Origin: Saccharothrix sp. S26 | GTDB lineage: Bacteria; Actinomycetota; Actinomycetes; Mycobacteriales; Pseudonocardiaceae | Assembly: GCF_021390395.1 (NCBI RefSeq) | Contig: NZ_JAJUWT010000025.1 | Coordinates: 62,001 to 126,000, forward strand | DNA: 64,000 bases | Reading direction: 5' to 3' | Shown here: in pieces, positions 3,238 to 13,886 of the stretch | How the letters are laid out: every line of letters begins with the position of its first letter | Numbering within the stretch: the first letter of the stretch is position 1 | Program-made: the position numbers and the translations under genes | Notes under the pieces: model-generated | What the model was told of the DNA's origin: nothing | The model's database searches: none | The model's input: only the letters and a program-made list of their open reading frames with translations

Positions 3238-4830
3238 ATGCAGGCTCTCGATGCGGTCGCGGTGCGCCAGTGGGCGGACGCCTGCGTTCGGTCCCTGGAC
3301 GCCAACCGCGAGGCCATCGACCGCATCAACGTCTTCCCCGTGCCGGACGGCGACACCGGGACCAACCTGCTGCAGACCATGCGCTCGGCGCTGGACGCCC
3401 TGCTCAGGACACCCGTGGACACGGTCGGGGCGGCGCTGGGCGCGCTCGCGCGCGGTGCGCTGGCCGGGGCGCGGGGCAACTCCGGGGTGATCCTCTCCCA
3501 GGTGCTGCGCGGCTTGGCGGAGGCCGCGCAGGGCGCTTCCACGGCGTCCGGCGCGGCCCTGCGGCGGGCGTTGTGGCGGGCCGACGAGCTGGCCACGGCC
3601 GCGGTGTCGAAGCCCGTGCCGGGCACCGTGCTGTCCGTGCTGCACGCGGCGGCCGAGGCGGCCCGCGACTGCGCGTCCGACGAGCTGGACGAGGTCGTCA
3701 CGGTGGCCGCGAAGGCGGGGGCCGAGGCGTTGGCCGACACGCCGCGCCACCTGGCCGTGCTGGCCAGGGCGGGCGTGGTCGACGCGGGCGGGCGCGGGCT
3801 GGTCGTGCTGCTGGACACGCTGGCGGCGGTGATCACCGGGCGGGCGGTCGAGGCCGTGCCGGTGGCGGGCTCCGTGCCGCGCGAGTCGCTGACGACCGCG
3901 CGCGAGGCCGGGTCGGCGGAGTTCGAGTACGAGGTCATGTACCTGCTGGACGGCTCGCCGGACGTGGAGGCGCTCAAGGACGAGCTGGCGGCCGTCGGCG
4001 ACTGCGTGTCCGTGGTCGGCGACGGCGCGGGGCTGTGGACCGTGCACGTGCACTGCAACGACATCGGCGCGGCCGTCGAGGCGGGCATCCGGGCCGGTCG
4101 GCCGCACCGCATCACGGTGGCCCGGTTCGCCGACCAGATCGCCGCCCAGGCGCCCCGGTTCGTGCGCGACCGGGCCATCGTCGTGCTGGTCGAGGGCGAC
4201 GGCGCGGCCGAGCTGTTCCGGTCGGAGGGCGCGGTGGTGTTCCAGCCCGGCGACGAGGTCACGGCGGCCGACCTGCTGGCCGTGGTGGTGAGCACGCGGG
4301 CGCGGCAGGTGACCGTGCTGCCCGGCGACCCGACCTGGCGGCAACCGCTGGACGACGCCGTCACGCAGGCCGTCGCCGCCGGTCAGGACGTCGTGGTCGT
4401 GCCGACGTTCTCCCCGGTGCAGGCGCTGGCGGCGCTGGCCGTGCACTCGCCGTCCCGGCGCGCAGGCGACGACGTGGTCGCGATGGCGGAGGCCGCCGCG
4501 GCGACCCGGCGCGGCGAGGTCGCGGTGTCGGACCGGGAGGCCATCACGTGGGTCGGCCGGTGCCGCCCCGGCGACCTGCTCGGCATGGTGGACGGCGAGG
4601 TCGTGGTGATCGAGCCCGGTGACGCCGACGTGGGCGCGCTGGCGTGCCGGGTGGTCGACCGGATGCTCGCCAGCGGCGGCGAGCTGGTCACCGTGCTGCT
4701 GGGGCGGGCCGCCCCGGCCGGGGTGGAGCGGGTGCTGGAAGATCACCTGCGCGTCGCCCACCCCGAGGTGGAGCTGGCCGCCTACGAGGGCGGGCAGCGT
4801 GACGCCCTGCTCACTGTCGGTGTGGAGTAG
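3238..4830 (+). CDS. DAK2-domain fatty-acid-kinase-like protein (YloV/FakA family)
   Basis: A 530-residue protein with an N-terminal DhaL-type ATP-binding domain ('NVFPVPDGDTGTNL' near residues 31-44 with the metal-binding Asp residues, and 'GARGNSGVILSQ'), a middle domain and a FakA-like C-terminal domain. In Firmicutes FakA phosphorylates fatty acids bound to DegV-type FakB proteins. No FakB gene is in the window, so that role is carried over from the family. The ATG at 3238 lies 7 bases after TACCCT (3225-3230), so a leaderless mRNA is likely. It stops 14 bases before recG, the same pairing as in mycobacteria. Confidence 0.88.
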   Translation: MQALDAVAVRQWADACVRSLDANREAIDRINVFPVPDGDTGTNLLQTMRSALDALLRTPVDTVGAALGALARGALAGARGNSGVILSQVLRGLAEAAQGASTASGAALRRALWRADELATAAVSKPVPGTVLSVLHAAAEAARDCASDELDEVVTVAAKAGAEALADTPRHLAVLARAGVVDAGGRGLVVLLDTLAAVITGRAVEAVPVAGSVPRESLTTAREAGSAEFEYEVMYLLDGSPDVEALKDELAAVGDCVSVVGDGAGLWTVHVHCNDIGAAVEAGIRAGRPHRITVARFADQIAAQAPRFVRDRAIVVLVEGDGAAELFRSEGAVVFQPGDEVTAADLLAVVVSTRARQVTVLPGDPTWRQPLDDAVTQAVAAGQDVVVVPTFSPVQALAALAVHSPSRRAGDDVVAMAEAAAATRRGEVAVSDREAITWVGRCRPGDLLGMVDGEVVVIEPGDADVGALACRVVDRMLASGGELVTVLLGRAAPAGVERVLEDHLRVAHPEVELAAYEGGQRDALLTVGVE

Positions 4831-4844
4831 TTGAATAGGCCGCG

Positions 4845-7800
4845 ATGACGACCTTCGACGAGAAGCTGGTGTCGGTGCTCGGCAAGAAGAGCGCCGACGC
4901 ACTGGAGGCGGGCCTCGGCCTGACCACCGTCGGTGAGCTGCTGCGCCACTACCCGCGCCGCTACGACGAGCGCGGCAAGCTGACCGAGATCGCCGGGCTG
5001 GAGCTGGGCGAGCACGTCACCGTGCAGGCGCGGGTGAAGAGCGCGCGGCAGCGGCGGATGAAGTCGCGCAGCGGCGAGCTGCTGGAGGCCGTGATCACCG
5101 ACGGCAGCAGCGACCTGCACCTGGTGTTCTTCGGGCGCGGCTCGCGCAAGGTCGAGCGGGAGCTGCTGCCCGGGCGCGAGGCGATGTTCGCGGGCAAGGT
5201 CGGCATGTTCAACGGCAAGCTCCAGCTCGCCCACCCCGACTACCAGGTGCTCGACGGCGAGGACGTCGCGGCGGCGGACTTCGCGGGCGCGTTGATCCCG
5301 GTCTACCCGGCGGCGCAGGGCATCCAGTCCTGGAACGTCTCCAACTGCGTCGAGCAGGTGCTCGCGGTGTGGGACGGCGTGGCGGAGGACCCGTTGCCGG
5401 AGTCGCTGCGCGCCGAGCGGGGCCTGATCGGGCTGGAGCGGGCGTTGCGCGACATCCACCGGCCGGACGGCTGGGCGGCGATCGCGGTGGCCCAGCAGCG
5501 GTTGAAGTGGGACGAGGCGATGGCGGTGCAGCTGACGCTGGCGCAGCGCCGCCGTTCGGCCACGGCCCGTCCCGCGCCCGCGTGCCCGCCCCGGCCCGGT
5601 CTCGTGCGCGACGCGTTCGACGCCCGGCTGCCGTTCGAGCTGACGGCGGGGCAGCGCGAGGTCGGCGACCAGATCGCCCGCGACCTGTCCGGCGAGCACC
5701 CGATGAACCGCCTGCTCCAGGGGGAGGTGGGCTCGGGCAAGGCGCAACCGCTCGACGCCAAGGTGCTGACCCCGACGGGGTTCCGGCTGATGGGCGAGAT
5801 CCGGCCGGGTGACGAGGTCATCGCGGCCGACGGCGAGGTGACGGTGGTCACCGGCGTCTTCCCGCAGGGCGAGCGCGAGGTCTACCGGGTCGTCCTCTCC
5901 GACGGCACCGGCGTCGAATGCGACCTGGAGCACCTGTGGGCGGTCAACACGGATGTTCGGCGGGACCGCGACAACCCGCTGGAGGTGCTGACCCTCCGGG
6001 AGATCCGGGACGACCTGGTGACCGCCGACGGCGCGCCCAAGTGGCACCTCCCGACCGCTGCGGCCGCGGAACTCGACTGCCACGAAGACCGGCCGGTGGA
6101 CCCGTACCTGTTGGGCCTGCTGCTCGGCGACGGCAGCCTGCTCGACGGGCGGGTCACGTTCACGAGCGCGGACCGGGAACTCGTCGACGGCCTCGCCGAA
6201 GCCCTGCCCGCCGGCTGCGAGTTGTGGAAGTCGCCGGCGAGCCGCCCGGACGACTGGTACGTCGTGGGCTGCGAGCGCGGGCGCAACCCGTTGCTCGCCG
6301 CCCTGCGCGAACTGGGCGTGCACGGCCACCGCTCGCACGCGAAGTTCGTGCCCGAGTCGTACCTCGTCGCGCCGGTGAAGGACCGGCACGCCCTCTTGCA
6401 GGGCCTGCTGGACACCGACGGGACCCCGGACCGCGCGCACGGGTCGAACGTGACCTTCGAGTCGGCTTCGGCGAGGCTCGCCGAACAGGTCGGATGGCTG
6501 GCGGAGTCCCTGGGCGGCACCGGTCGGGTCCGGCAGGTGACCAAGGGGGGGAACACTCACCACCAGGTCAGCCTGCGGCTGCCGATCGACTTCCCGCCGT
6601 TCCGGCTCGCGCGCAAAGCCGAGCTGGTGGCGAAGCGGACGGAGCACGCGGAACCGGTGCGTGCTATCCGCCGGGTCGAGCACGTGGGGCGCAAGCCGGT
6701 GCAGTGCATCTCCATCGCGCACCCCGACCAGCTCTACGTGACCGACCACTTCATCGTCACGCACAACACGATGGTCGCGTTGCGGGCGATGTTGCAGGTC
6801 GTGGACGCGGGGCGGCAGGCGGCGATGCTCGCGCCGACCGAGGTGCTGGCCGCGCAGCACGCGCGGTCGTTGCGGGAGCTGCTCGGCGACCTCGGGCAGG
6901 CGGGTGAGCTGGGCGGGGCCGAGCACGCCACGCGGGTGACGTTGCTGACCGGGTCGATGGGCACGGCGGCGCGCAAGCGGGCGCTGCTGGAGATCGTGTC
7001 CGGTGAGGCCGGGATCGTGGTCGGCACGCACGCGTTGATCCAGGACAAGGTGGAGTTCGCCGACCTGGGGCTGGTCGTGGTGGACGAGCAGCACCGGTTC
7101 GGCGTGGAGCAGCGGGCCGCGCTGAGCGGGCGCGCGGGCGGGTCGACGCCGCACGTGCTGGTGATGACGGCCACACCGATCCCGCGCACGGTGGCGATGA
7201 CGGTGTACGGCGACCTGGAGGTGTCCGCGCTGCGCGAGCTGCCGCGCGGTCGTTCGCCGATCAGCACGTCCGTGGTGCCGGTGGCGTCGAAGCCGGGGTG
7301 GCTGGACCGGGCGTGGCAGCGGATCCACGAGGAGGTCGGCAAGGGCCACCAGGTGTACGTGGTGTGCCCGCGCATCGGCGACGGCGCGGCGGAGGACGAC
7401 GCGGAGGCTCCCCCGAAGGAGGGGTCGGGCAAGGGCGACGGCTCGGACCGCAGGCCGCCCCTGGCCGTGGTGGACGTGGCGAACAAGCTGGCCGAGGGGC
7501 CGTTGCGCGGGCTGCGGATCGACATCCTGCACGGCAGGCTGGCCCCGGAGGACAAGGACGCCGTGATGCGGGCGTTCGCGGCGAACGAGGTGCAGGTGCT
7601 CGTCGCCACGACCGTCGTCGAGGTCGGCGTGAACGTGCCCAACGCCACCGTCATGGTGATCATGGACGCGGACCGGTTCGGCGTGAGCCAGTTGCACCAG
7701 CTGCGCGGTCGGGTCGGCCGGGGCAGCGCGCCGGGGCTGTGCCTGCTGGTGACCGAGATGCCCGACGGCACCTCCACGATGGAACGGCTGCGGGCCGTCG

Positions 7801-8066
7801 AGTCCACTTTGGATGGCTTCGAGCTGGCGCAGCTCGACCTGGAGCTGCGGCGCGAGGGCGACATCCTCGGCGCGGCCCAGTCCGGCAAGCGGTCGGGGCT
7901 GAAGATGCTGTCGCTGCTGCGCGACGAGGACGTGATCGCCGAGGCACGGGTGGTCGCGCAGCGGGTCGTGGAGGCGGACCCGGAGCTGACCGCGCACCCC
8001 GGGCTGGCCGGCTTGGTGGCGGGGCTGCTGGACGACGAGCGCGCGGAGTACCTGGAGAAGGCGTAG
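4845..8066 (+). CDS. recG: ATP-dependent DNA helicase RecG, interrupted by an intein
   Basis: RecG reverses stalled replication forks and branch-migrates Holliday junctions. The 1,073-residue precursor is one open frame. Removing residues 300-641 leaves 731 residues, a normal RecG length, and restores the P-loop 'GEVGSGKT', which the insertion splits between Lys and Thr. Host motifs are complete: an N-terminal OB-fold wedge domain, 'VVVDEQHRFGVEQ' (DEQH box), 'TATPIPRT' and 'QLRGRVGRG'. The unspliced protein cannot have a working ATP site, so RecG activity should depend on protein splicing. It lies 14 bases after the DAK2-domain gene and may be co-transcribed with it. Confidence 0.97.
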   Translation: MTTFDEKLVSVLGKKSADALEAGLGLTTVGELLRHYPRRYDERGKLTEIAGLELGEHVTVQARVKSARQRRMKSRSGELLEAVITDGSSDLHLVFFGRGSRKVERELLPGREAMFAGKVGMFNGKLQLAHPDYQVLDGEDVAAADFAGALIPVYPAAQGIQSWNVSNCVEQVLAVWDGVAEDPLPESLRAERGLIGLERALRDIHRPDGWAAIAVAQQRLKWDEAMAVQLTLAQRRRSATARPAPACPPRPGLVRDAFDARLPFELTAGQREVGDQIARDLSGEHPMNRLLQGEVGSGKAQPLDAKVLTPTGFRLMGEIRPGDEVIAADGEVTVVTGVFPQGEREVYRVVLSDGTGVECDLEHLWAVNTDVRRDRDNPLEVLTLREIRDDLVTADGAPKWHLPTAAAAELDCHEDRPVDPYLLGLLLGDGSLLDGRVTFTSADRELVDGLAEALPAGCELWKSPASRPDDWYVVGCERGRNPLLAALRELGVHGHRSHAKFVPESYLVAPVKDRHALLQGLLDTDGTPDRAHGSNVTFESASARLAEQVGWLAESLGGTGRVRQVTKGGNTHHQVSLRLPIDFPPFRLARKAELVAKRTEHAEPVRAIRRVEHVGRKPVQCISIAHPDQLYVTDHFIVTHNTMVALRAMLQVVDAGRQAAMLAPTEVLAAQHARSLRELLGDLGQAGELGGAEHATRVTLLTGSMGTAARKRALLEIVSGEAGIVVGTHALIQDKVEFADLGLVVVDEQHRFGVEQRAALSGRAGGSTPHVLVMTATPIPRTVAMTVYGDLEVSALRELPRGRSPISTSVVPVASKPGWLDRAWQRIHEEVGKGHQVYVVCPRIGDGAAEDDAEAPPKEGSGKGDGSDRRPPLAVVDVANKLAEGPLRGLRIDILHGRLAPEDKDAVMRAFAANEVQVLVATTVVEVGVNVPNATVMVIMDADRFGVSQLHQLRGRVGRGSAPGLCLLVTEMPDGTSTMERLRAVESTLDGFELAQLDLELRREGDILGAAQSGKRSGLKMLSLLRDEDVIAEARVVAQRVVEADPELTAHPGLAGLVAGLLDDERAEYLEKA
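5742..6767 (+). mobile_element. Class 3 intein with LAGLIDADG homing endonuclease, inserted in the RecG P-loop
   Basis: Residues 300-641 of the RecG precursor (342 aa) form an intein. It begins with Ala300, not Cys or Ser, which rules out the standard class 1 first step. The class 3 triad is present: Trp365 in block B ('EHLWAV'), Cys621 in block F ('VQCISI') and Thr639 in block G ('FIVTHN'). His640-Asn641 end the intein and Thr642 is the +1 extein residue. Between them lie two LAGLIDADG motifs, 'YLLGLLLGDG' (Asp429) and 'LLQGLLDTDG' (Asp525), plus a block D Lys500, so the endonuclease looks intact. A DNA-level mobile element in frame is the only reading that keeps both RecG halves intact. Confidence 0.95.
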
Positions 8067-10508: not shown

Positions 10509-13500
10509 ATGTTCCGCAAGGTTCTTGTCGCCAACCGCGGCGAGATCGCGATCCGGGCCTTTCGCGCTGCCTATGAACTGGGCGCCGGCACGGTTGCCGT
10601 CTTCCCCCATGAGGACCGCAACTCCCTGCACCGGCTGAAGGCCGACGAGTCGTACGAGATCGGTGAGCCCGGCCACCCGGTCCGGGCCTACCTGTCGGTC
10701 GAGGAGATCATCAAGGCGGCCCGCAAAGCGGGCGCCGACGCGGTCTACCCCGGCTACGGCTTCCTGTCGGAGAACCCCGAGCTGGCCAGGGCGTGCGCGG
10801 AGGCGGGCATCACGTTCGTCGGCCCGCCCTCGGACGTGCTCGAGCTGACCGGCAACAAGGCCCGCGCCATCGCCGCGGCCCGCGAAGCCGGTCTCCCGGT
10901 GCTCAAGTCGAGCGAGCCGTCCAGCGACATCGACGCGCTCGTGCGCGCGGCCGAGGACATCACGTTCCCGGTGTTCGTGAAGGCCGTCGCGGGCGGCGGC
11001 GGTCGTGGCATGCGGCGCGTCGAGGACCCGGCCGCGCTGAGGGAGTCCCTGGAAGCCGCGTCCCGCGAGGCGGAGTCGGCGTTCGGCGACCCCACGGTGT
11101 TCCTGGAGCAGGCCGTCGTCGAGCCGCGGCACATCGAGGTGCAGATCCTCGCCGACGGCGAGGGCAACGTGATGCACCTGTTCGAGCGCGACTGCTCGGT
11201 GCAGCGACGCCACCAGAAGGTCATCGAGATCGCGCCCGCGCCGAACCTCTCGCCCGAGCTGCGGGACCGGATCTGCAACGACGCGGTGAAGTTCGCCCGG
11301 CACATCGGCTACCGCAACGCCGGCACCGTCGAGTTCCTGCTCGACCCGAACGGCAACTACGTCTTCATCGAGATGAACCCCCGCATCCAGGTCGAGCACA
11401 CGGTCACCGAAGAGGTCACCGACGTGGACCTGGTGCAGTCGCAGATGCGCATCGCCAGCGGCGAGAACCTCGACGACCTCGGCCTGAGCCAGGAGACCGT
11501 GCAGTTGCGCGGCGCGGCCCTCCAGTGCCGCATCACCACCGAGGACCCCGCCAACGGCTTCCGCCCCGACACCGGCATGATCAGCGCCTACCGCTCGCCG
11601 GGCGGCTCGGGCATCCGGTTGGACGGCGGCACGACGGGCGCGGGCACGGTCATCGGCGCGCACTTCGACTCGATGCTGGTCAAGCTGACGTGCCGGGGTC
11701 GGACGTTCTCCGCGGCGGTGGCCCGGGCGCGGCGCGCGGTGGCGGAGTTCCGGATCCGGGGCGTGTCGACGAACATCCCGTTCATCCAGGCGGTGCTCGA
11801 CGACCCGGACTTCTACGAGGGCCGCGTCACGACGTCGTTCATCGAGAAGCGCCCGCACCTGCTCACCGCGCGGCACTCGGCCGACCGCGGCACGCGCATG
11901 CTCACCTACCTGGCCGACGTGACGGTCAACAAGCCGAACGGCCCGCGTCCGTCCGTGGTGGACCCGAAGGTCAAGCTGCCGGTGGTCGACCTCAACGCCG
12001 AGCCGCCCGCCGGGTCGAAGCAGAAGCTGGTCGAGCTGGGCCCGGAGGGCTTCGCCCGCTGGCTGCGCGAGAGCAAGGCGCTGGCCGTCACGGACACCAC
12101 GTTCCGCGACGCGCACCAGTCGTTGCTGGCCACGCGCGTGCGGACGAAGGACCTGCTCGCGGTCGCGCCGCACGTGGCGCGGATGACGCCCCAGCTGCTG
12201 TCGCTGGAGGCGTGGGGCGGCGCGACCTACGACGTGGCGCTGCGGTTCCTGGCCGAAGACCCGTGGGAGCGGCTCGCGGCGCTGCGCGAAGCGGTGCCCA
12301 ACATCACGTTGCAGATGCTGCTGCGCGGCCGGAACACGGTCGGTTACACGCCGTACCCCGAGGCCGTGACCAGCGCGTTCGTCGAAGAGGCGACCAAGAC
12401 CGGGATCGACATCTTCCGGATCTTCGACGCGCTCAACGATGTCGAGCAGATGCGGCCGGCGATCGAGGCGGTGCGCGAGACCGGCACGGCGGTGGCCGAG
12501 GTGTGCCTGTGCTACACCGCCGACCTGTCGAACCCGGACGAGCGGCTCTACACGCTGGACTACTACCTGAAGCTCGCCGAGCAGATCGTCGGCGCGGGCG
12601 CGCACGTGCTGGCCATCAAGGACATGGCCGGCCTGCTGCGGCCGCCGGCGGCGGCACGGCTGGTGACGGCGTTGCGCAAGGAGTTCGACCTGCCCGTGCA
12701 CCTGCACACGCACGACACGGCGGGCGGGCAGTTGGCGACCTACCTGGCCGCCATCCAGTCCGGCGTGGACGCGGTGGACGGCGCGGTGGCGTCCATGGCG
12801 GGCACCACGTCCCAGCCGCCGCTGTCGGCGATCGTGGCGGCGACGGACTACACGGAGCACGCCACCGGGCTGGACCTGCGGGCGGTGTGCGACCTGGAGC
12901 CGTACTGGGAGTCGGTGCGCAAGGTGTACGCGCCGTTCGAGTCCGGCATCCCCGGGCCCACGGGTCGGGTGTACTCGCACGAGATCCCCGGCGGGCAGCT
13001 GTCCAACCTGCGCACGCAGGCGGTCGCGCTCGGCCTCGGGCAGAAGTTCGAGGAGATCGAGGCCATGTACGCGGCGGCCGACCGGATGCTCGGTCGGCTG
13101 GTGAAGGTGACGCCGTCGTCCAAGGTGGTCGGCGACCTCGCGCTGCACCTGGTCGGCGCGGGGGTCAAGCCCGAGGAGTTCGAGGCCGACCCCGGTCGGT
13201 TCGACATCCCGGCCTCGGTGATCGGGTTCCTGCACGGCGAGCTGGGCGACCCGCCCGGCGGGTGGCCGGAGCCGTTCCGCAGCAAGGCGTTGCAGGGGCG
13301 GGCCGCGCCCAAGGGCGTGGCGGAGCTGACCGACGACGACGTGAAGGGGCTGGAGCTCGACCGGCGCAACACGTTGAACCGGCTGCTGTTCCCGGCTCCC
13401 ACGAAGGAGTTCCTGGCGCACCGCGAGGCGTACGGCGACACCAGCGTGCTGGGCAGCAAGGACTTCTTCTACGGGCTCAAGCCGGGGGAGGAGTACCAGG

Positions 13501-13886
13501 TCGACCTGGAGCCCGGTGTGCGGTTGCTGATCGGGTTGGAGGCCATCGGTGAGGCCGACGAGCGCGGCATCCGCACCGTGATGGCGACGTTGAACGGGCA
13601 GTTGCGGCCGATCCAGGTGCGGGACCGGTCGATCGCGGCCGAGGTGCCCGTGGCGGAGAAGGCGGACCGGGGCAACCCCGGCCACGTCGCCGCGCCGTTC
13701 GCCGGGGTCGTCACGCCCAACGTGGCGGAGGACGACGTGGTCGAGGTCGGGCAGACGATCGCGACCATCGAGGCGATGAAGATGGAGGCCGCGATCACGG
13801 CTCCCAAGGCCGGGCGGGTGAAGCGGTTGGCCGTGCGCGGGGTGCAGCAGGTCGAGGGTGGCGATCTGTTGATCGTGTTGGAGTGA
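10509..13886 (+). CDS. pyc: Pyruvate carboxylase
   Basis: Pyc carboxylates pyruvate to oxaloacetate using ATP, bicarbonate and covalent biotin, refilling the TCA cycle. The 1,125 residues carry all domains in one chain: biotin carboxylase (~1-450, ATP-grasp 'KAVAGGGGRGMR', 'EMNPRIQVEHTVTEE'), carboxyltransferase (~530-800, 'TDTTFRDAHQSLLATRVR', 'HLHTHDTAGGQ'), allosteric linker, and a C-terminal biotin carrier with 'IEAMKMEA' (biotinyl Lys ~1091). Length and order are normal for an alpha4 pyruvate carboxylase. The ATG at 10509 follows GGGAGGG. In related actinobacteria pyc lies just before rsmD, as here apart from one inserted gene. Confidence 0.98.
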   Translation: MFRKVLVANRGEIAIRAFRAAYELGAGTVAVFPHEDRNSLHRLKADESYEIGEPGHPVRAYLSVEEIIKAARKAGADAVYPGYGFLSENPELARACAEAGITFVGPPSDVLELTGNKARAIAAAREAGLPVLKSSEPSSDIDALVRAAEDITFPVFVKAVAGGGGRGMRRVEDPAALRESLEAASREAESAFGDPTVFLEQAVVEPRHIEVQILADGEGNVMHLFERDCSVQRRHQKVIEIAPAPNLSPELRDRICNDAVKFARHIGYRNAGTVEFLLDPNGNYVFIEMNPRIQVEHTVTEEVTDVDLVQSQMRIASGENLDDLGLSQETVQLRGAALQCRITTEDPANGFRPDTGMISAYRSPGGSGIRLDGGTTGAGTVIGAHFDSMLVKLTCRGRTFSAAVARARRAVAEFRIRGVSTNIPFIQAVLDDPDFYEGRVTTSFIEKRPHLLTARHSADRGTRMLTYLADVTVNKPNGPRPSVVDPKVKLPVVDLNAEPPAGSKQKLVELGPEGFARWLRESKALAVTDTTFRDAHQSLLATRVRTKDLLAVAPHVARMTPQLLSLEAWGGATYDVALRFLAEDPWERLAALREAVPNITLQMLLRGRNTVGYTPYPEAVTSAFVEEATKTGIDIFRIFDALNDVEQMRPAIEAVRETGTAVAEVCLCYTADLSNPDERLYTLDYYLKLAEQIVGAGAHVLAIKDMAGLLRPPAAARLVTALRKEFDLPVHLHTHDTAGGQLATYLAAIQSGVDAVDGAVASMAGTTSQPPLSAIVAATDYTEHATGLDLRAVCDLEPYWESVRKVYAPFESGIPGPTGRVYSHEIPGGQLSNLRTQAVALGLGQKFEEIEAMYAAADRMLGRLVKVTPSSKVVGDLALHLVGAGVKPEEFEADPGRFDIPASVIGFLHGELGDPPGGWPEPFRSKALQGRAAPKGVAELTDDDVKGLELDRRNTLNRLLFPAPTKEFLAHREAYGDTSVLGSKDFFYGLKPGEEYQVDLEPGVRLLIGLEAIGEADERGIRTVMATLNGQLRPIQVRDRSIAAEVPVAEKADRGNPGHVAAPFAGVVTPNVAEDDVVEVGQTIATIEAMKMEAAITAPKAGRVKRLAVRGVQQVEGGDLLIVLE

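Follow-up and report, generated by a model that had tools for sequence, protein, structure and literature searches.

Class 3 inteins in the P-loop of mycobacterial DnaB proteins are among the closest described relatives of the element reported here. In the Mycobacterium smegmatis DnaB intein DnaBi1, the +1 Ser of the P-loop is described as serving both Mg2+ coordination and splicing, and the redox switch of this intein as a Cys48–Cys118 disulfide (PMC6195587); a DnaB/PhoH class 3 alignment in the same paper includes M. fortuitum and M. xenopi. In the M. chimaera intein MchDnaB1, the catalytic triad and the WCT set comprise His65, Trp67, Cys124 and Thr143 (PMC7664689). RecG appears as an intein host in Table 1 of a 2018 review, where neither site nor class is given (PMC5874633). 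RecG is already known as an intein host, and the Lys/Thr site in RecG is not claimed here as unpublished. Among openly licensed PMC papers, none that mentions class 3 inteins was found to mention RecG as well.

The locus analysed here lies in a 64,000-nucleotide stretch of a Saccharothrix sp. S26 contig (the window). The chromosomal recG there very probably houses a full-length class 3 intein: a selfish element that would splice constitutively to give a 731-aa RecG and would home into empty alleles. This reading draws on the sequence, the catalytic residues, the predicted fold, the distribution and the pattern of gain and decay, with splicing chemistry and DNA cleavage carried over by analogy from other class 3 inteins.

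The recG frame and its intein

The precursor of 1,073 residues scores 1124.6 bits against the NCBIfam RecG model NF008167, above the equivalog cut-off of 995, and the match is split into two stretches, the best of which begins at residue 641. The original prediction had described a single open frame that becomes a 731-residue RecG once residues 300–641 are removed, with the insertion placed exactly between the Lys and Thr of GEVGSGKT. Both descriptions hold: excision leaves 731 residues, and Lys299 and Thr642 flank the insert (Table 1). No second RecG above the NF008167 cut-off was found among the matches listed for the window genome, the next match lying far below it at 238.8 bits. Contamination or assembly error as the origin of the insert was rejected; an artefact of assembly is very unlikely because inteins of the same clade occupy the same site in nine other Saccharothrix genomes and in six genomes of g25, a second genus of the family.

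The surroundings of recG look like ordinary chromosome. Four of the seven neighbouring frames scanned match Pfam families (a uracil-DNA-glycosylase-like protein, a FakA/DAK2-like protein at 3238–4830, a pyruvate-carboxylase-like protein at 10509–13886 and a beta-lactamase-fold protein) and three match nothing; phage or transposon families were matched by none of the seven in Pfam. An antisense frame of 1,071 aa (4782–7997, minus strand) was rejected as a gene. It was judged a mirror of recG (third-position GC 0.98) and is probably a by-product of very high third-position GC.

Table 1 Features of the interrupted recG gene, in window coordinates
Feature	Position	Strand	Basis
recG open frame with in-frame intein, 1,073-aa precursor	4845–8066	+	NF008167 match
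N-extein, RecG residues 1–299	4845–5741	+	
Walker A GEVGSGK, 5' of the insertion point	5721–5741	+	direct reading
Codons of Lys299; Ala300; Trp365	5739–5741; 5742–5744; 5937–5939	+	
Class 3 intein, 342 aa, Ala1 ... Thr340-His341-Asn342	5742–6767	+	
Block B DxxHxW: Asp61, His64, Trp66	5922–5939	+	H64/W66 align with 6rix positions 65/67
LAGLIDADG homing-endonuclease domain, approximately intein residues 119–275 (analyst-set limits)	6096–6566	+	Pfam PF14528, predicted fold
First LAGLIDADG motif, Asp130 intact	6111–6137	+	alignment
Second LAGLIDADG motif, Asp226 intact	6393–6422	+	alignment
Cys322 of block F, numbered Cys621 in the precursor; presumed first nucleophile	6705–6707	+	aligns with 6rix position 124
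Block G Thr340-His341-Asn342	6759–6767	+	invariant in 64/64 inteins
Codons of Cys621; Thr639; Asn641; Thr642	6705–6707; 6759–6761; 6765–6767; 6768–6770	+	
C-extein, first residue Walker A Thr642 (+1 residue)	6768–8066	+	

The class 3 identity of the insert, proposed from its Ala start and from Trp365, Cys621 and Thr639, is upheld by sequence, tree and predicted fold. Residue counts were taken from the columns of a 64-row alignment comprising 27 RecG, 16 PhoH, 15 'vir' (14 viral contigs and the Saccharibacteria MAG contig L023) and 6 DnaB inteins, in which the six DnaB labels and most of the PhoH labels were assigned from flanking motifs. H64, W66, C322, T340, H341 and N342 are invariant in all 64 rows. 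Conservation of the Trp and Cys in homologues had been named in advance as a check, and the WCT set (W66, C322 and T340) is kept in 27/27 of the RecG inteins extracted. The same 27 all begin with Ala, so that position 1 offers no Cys or Ser nucleophile, and all carry Asp61 and His64, the Asp and His of the block B DxxH motif that has been described in DnaBi1 (PMC6195587). The best phmmer matches in the PDB are the DnaB inteins 6rix, 6riy and 6bs8 (E-values of 6e-10 to 2e-9); in the 6rix alignment, H64, W66, C322 and T340 correspond to positions 65, 67, 124 and 143.

In Pfam, the insert matches LAGLIDADG_3 (41.8 bits) and Hom_end (22.2 bits), and both LAGLIDADG acidic residues are present as predicted, namely Asp130 and Asp226 of the intein. 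An AlphaFold2 model built with 19 aligned sequences (pLDDT of 90.3 and pTM of 0.89) predicts a HINT fold. In Foldseek searches with this model, VMA-type inteins with an endonuclease rank at the top (TliVMA, 7qsu; PI-SceI, 1vde_A, E-value of 7.3e-18), and further matches are I-DmoI structures and two class 3 inteins, 6bs8_B (TMt of 0.82) and 6riy_A (TMt of 0.78).

By analogy with other class 3 inteins, Cys322 of block F would attack the Lys299–Ala1 bond; His64 and Thr340 would assist it, and Trp66 would pack the site. The N-extein would then be transferred to the +1 residue Thr642, Asn342 would cyclise with the assistance of His341, and an acyl shift would leave a seamless 731-aa RecG. The unspliced 1,073-aa precursor, with its Walker A motif split, would not be expected to bind ATP normally; it should be ATPase-dead, because Walker A works only with Lys299 and Thr642 together. 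Homing would begin with the LAGLIDADG domain cleaving the conserved P-loop DNA of an empty recG allele, where the intein would then be copied.

Occupied and empty alleles in Saccharothrix

Empty and occupied recG alleles coexist in the genus. All 25 Saccharothrix genomes encode a RecG above the cut-off; the site is occupied by an intein in ten and reads as an uninterrupted GEVGSGKT in 15. Three of the ten inteins are full-length at 342 aa (those of the window genome G000, of G010 and of G016), and the other seven are mini-inteins, six of 225 aa and one of 230 aa, from which the first LAGLIDADG motif and roughly half of the endonuclease are missing. The second-motif Asp226 is kept in 3/3 full-length copies and is Gly in 7/7 minis. 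At the first-motif Asp130, G010 and G016 have Gly and the column is empty in all seven minis; therefore the window copy alone among the ten genus inteins retains both endonuclease Asp residues, the other nine having lost at least one.

Insertions at the P-loop Lys/Thr site of RecG elsewhere, a search for which had been suggested as a check, were found in relatives and in other genera. The surveys used a junction query (extein plus intein start), which detects relatives of the window intein and would miss an unrelated intein at the site. Across the 390 genomes of the family, the site was spanned in 16 among the matches listed, 10 from the genus and 6 from g25, and all six g25 inteins are 342 aa long with W, C and T. 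Wider surveys were samples of 298 genomes (order), 296 genomes (phylum) and 295 genomes (g104, the genus of G656). The order sample yielded none beyond G000 after exclusion of one hit, L109 (G623, query 34–120), which was rejected as a RecG intein on account of flanks unlike those of RecG (GEEKAGK/...THN/S). In the phylum sample, the positives were G000, G656, G810 and G661, and in g104, 54/295 genomes were positive; inteins were extracted from 10 of these 54, and the W/C/T counts cover those 10. Six of the g104 inteins (L121, L125, L126 and L129–L131) measure 272–313 aa, versus 338–339 in the four others extracted, which suggests, from sequence length, several endonuclease decays in that genus.

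On the midpoint-rooted intein tree, from which 13 of the 64 alignment rows were left out (five far 'vir', six DnaB, one identical RecG and one near-duplicate viral) and to which three were added, the RecG inteins, a plasmid-borne one included, form one clade at 100/100 that excludes the inteins of phages, of PhoH and of plasmid secretion ATPases. Those of Saccharothrix and g25 likewise form one clade at 100/100. This grouping would fit a single ancestral acquisition in the genus followed by many losses in place of repeated invasion, and counting events on the tree does not separate gain from loss. In the tree of RecG exteins, hosts of empty alleles are interspersed with the three hosts of full-length inteins; G022, whose site is empty, clusters with G010 and G016 at 99/99.

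Silent divergence and base composition argue against the single acquisition, which we consider unlikely. Intein dS exceeds extein dS in 6/8 listed full-length pairs, namely G000/G010 (0.49 versus 0.20), G000/G016 (0.57 versus 0.19), G236/G238 (0.93 versus 0.39), G250/G232 (1.19 versus 0.23), G000/G236 and G010/G236, with the excess at or below zero in 0/1,000 bootstraps for each; it is also in excess in the full-length versus mini pair G000/G001. No excess is seen for G010/G016 (0.08 versus 0.11) or G232/G249 (0.01 versus 0.06), and therefore not every pair indicates separate acquisition. The GC3 of the genus full-length inteins (0.942, 0.886 and 0.863) is below that of their exteins (approximately 0.98), and the gap is strongest in the three g25 copies measured (0.775–0.787 versus 0.911–0.946). 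Because GC3 differs, part of the G000/G010 dS excess could reflect adaptation to host composition, a process that in itself adds silent changes.

The minis behave differently from the full-length copies. Their GC3 is 0.969–1.000, alongside 0.91–0.99 for the 13 exteins measured. Across all 21 mini pairs, the intein/extein dS ratio is 0.5 to 1.2 and exceeds 1 in eight (point values for all 21, bootstrap intervals for four), and their near-uniform GC3 may hold down their dS. Minis are monophyletic at 100/100 on the intein tree; their hosts are weakly so on the extein tree (63/83), and because of that weak clade their vertical descent rests mainly on the intein tree, dS and GC3. We read these sequence patterns as fitting full-length copies that arrived repeatedly and minis that are an old, host-adapted lineage.

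The most useful outcome of this analysis is the series of intact, damaged, mini and empty alleles in a single genus. It samples the life cycle of an intein well, for a single site in a single host protein, with empty, intact, endonuclease-damaged and shrunken alleles across 25 genomes, in which silent divergence and GC3 distinguish likely recent arrivals from old residents.

Constitutive or conditional splicing

An intein that interrupts a P-loop could also be retained as a conditional switch, with slow or stress-dependent splicing that turns RecG on under given conditions only; such conditionality had been raised for fork rescue in the original prediction. There is precedent in the M. smegmatis DnaB class 3 P-loop intein, for which inhibition by H2O2 in M. 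smegmatis itself is described (PMC6195587), and the genus retains seven minis whose endonuclease is incomplete, their intein dN/dS being 0.09–0.52 between pairs. Such persistence is also expected simply because a recG in use tolerates only near-exact deletion. The residue that equips DnaBi1 for redox control is Cys in 6/6 DnaB-type inteins from the same genus, yet the aligned position in the window intein is Val47, and among the 27 RecG inteins it is Val in 25, Thr in one and Ile in one, with Cys in 0/27. A Cys48-type redox trap was accordingly rejected, and because that position is Val a DnaBi1-style switch cannot work alike here. A possible substitute partner is Cys60, which 18/27 RecG inteins have, but it is unconserved, being Ser in the other 9/27. 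Conditional control receives little of our probability. A variant in which the endonuclease-dead mini lineage would act as a fixed gate on RecG, its splicing speed timing fork rescue, while an active full-length form would still be invading relatives, is more doubtful still. The seven minis together with the intact window copy make a ready set for the question of neutral versus regulatory P-loop inteins in repair helicases.

That the insert is dead, with splicing lost and RecG non-functional or replaced, is highly improbable: an intein termed a pseudogene exists in Arthrobacter (Arth_1007; PMC3196547), but the catalytic residues are retained in 27/27 RecG inteins, the splicing part of G000 shows dN/dS of 0.17–0.22 against G010 and G016, the G000 and G010 exteins differ by a dN of 0.020 versus a dS of 0.204, and 25/25 genus RecGs score above the RecG cut-off.

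Comparison with other inteins

Class 3-like inteins of phages and mobile elements sit in terminases, SNF2 helicases and RecA-like proteins (on viral contigs) rather than in RecG. The 'vir' inteins resemble those of RecG in having W, C and T in 15/15 and a GK/T junction in 13/15. Of 50,697 phage records, 539 hold a tblastn relative at an E-value of 1e-5, and the phage relatives are at most 39.8% identical to the window intein among the 25 records listed. The Settecandela terminase intein differs in its +1 residue, which is Cys and not Thr. On viral contigs L042 (5001–6017) and L045 (102–602), a class 3-like intein lies immediately ahead of CGKS, again with a +1 Cys rather than Thr or Ser.

The actinomycetotal PhoH inteins share the WCT set with RecG inteins (16/16), and their full-length matches are 41–44% identical to the window intein. 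They differ in block B, where 13 of the 16 have Cys, two have Thr and one has Ser in place of the Asp, in their PhoH host (confirmed by Pfam for L005, the sole one tested) and in their separate clade (100/100). In Saccharothrix, PhoH-type genes (L004–L010 and L015) are interrupted at APLAYMRGR/T by a distinct family of class 3 inteins, and some of the 16 PhoH rows compared have lost endonuclease residues.

The inteins of g25, g104, f34 and a Rhodococcus plasmid share the RecG or RecG-family host, the same Lys/Thr site and one clade at 100/100; several have decayed endonucleases. Identity of the junction fragment to the window is 77–80% in g25, 60–69% in g104 and 56% in f34. The Rhodococcus rhodochrous plasmid NZ_CP120357 (L132, 1103–4780) encodes a RecG-family protein of 1,225 aa that an intein interrupts at this very junction; the intein carries the class 3 residues and is 48.5% identical to the window copy over the whole intein. 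The best model for the protein is NF008168 (647.7 bits, below the cut-off of 718), and its gene adjoins a tyrosine recombinase gene. A plasmid-borne RecG with an identical insertion point suggests one possible route of transfer. A match of equal identity (48.5%) lies on two Rhodococcus pyridinivorans plasmids.

With the mycobacterial DnaB P-loop inteins (DnaBi1, 6bs8; M. chimaera DnaB1, 6rix and 6riy), the RecG intein has in common the P-loop site, Ala1, the DxxH motif, the Trp, the block F Cys, the block G Thr and the His-Asn end. The differences lie in the host protein, in the +1 residue, which is Ser in the mycobacterial DnaB inteins and Thr here, and in DnaBi1 being a mini-intein whose redox partner, Cys48, has no Cys counterpart in RecG inteins.
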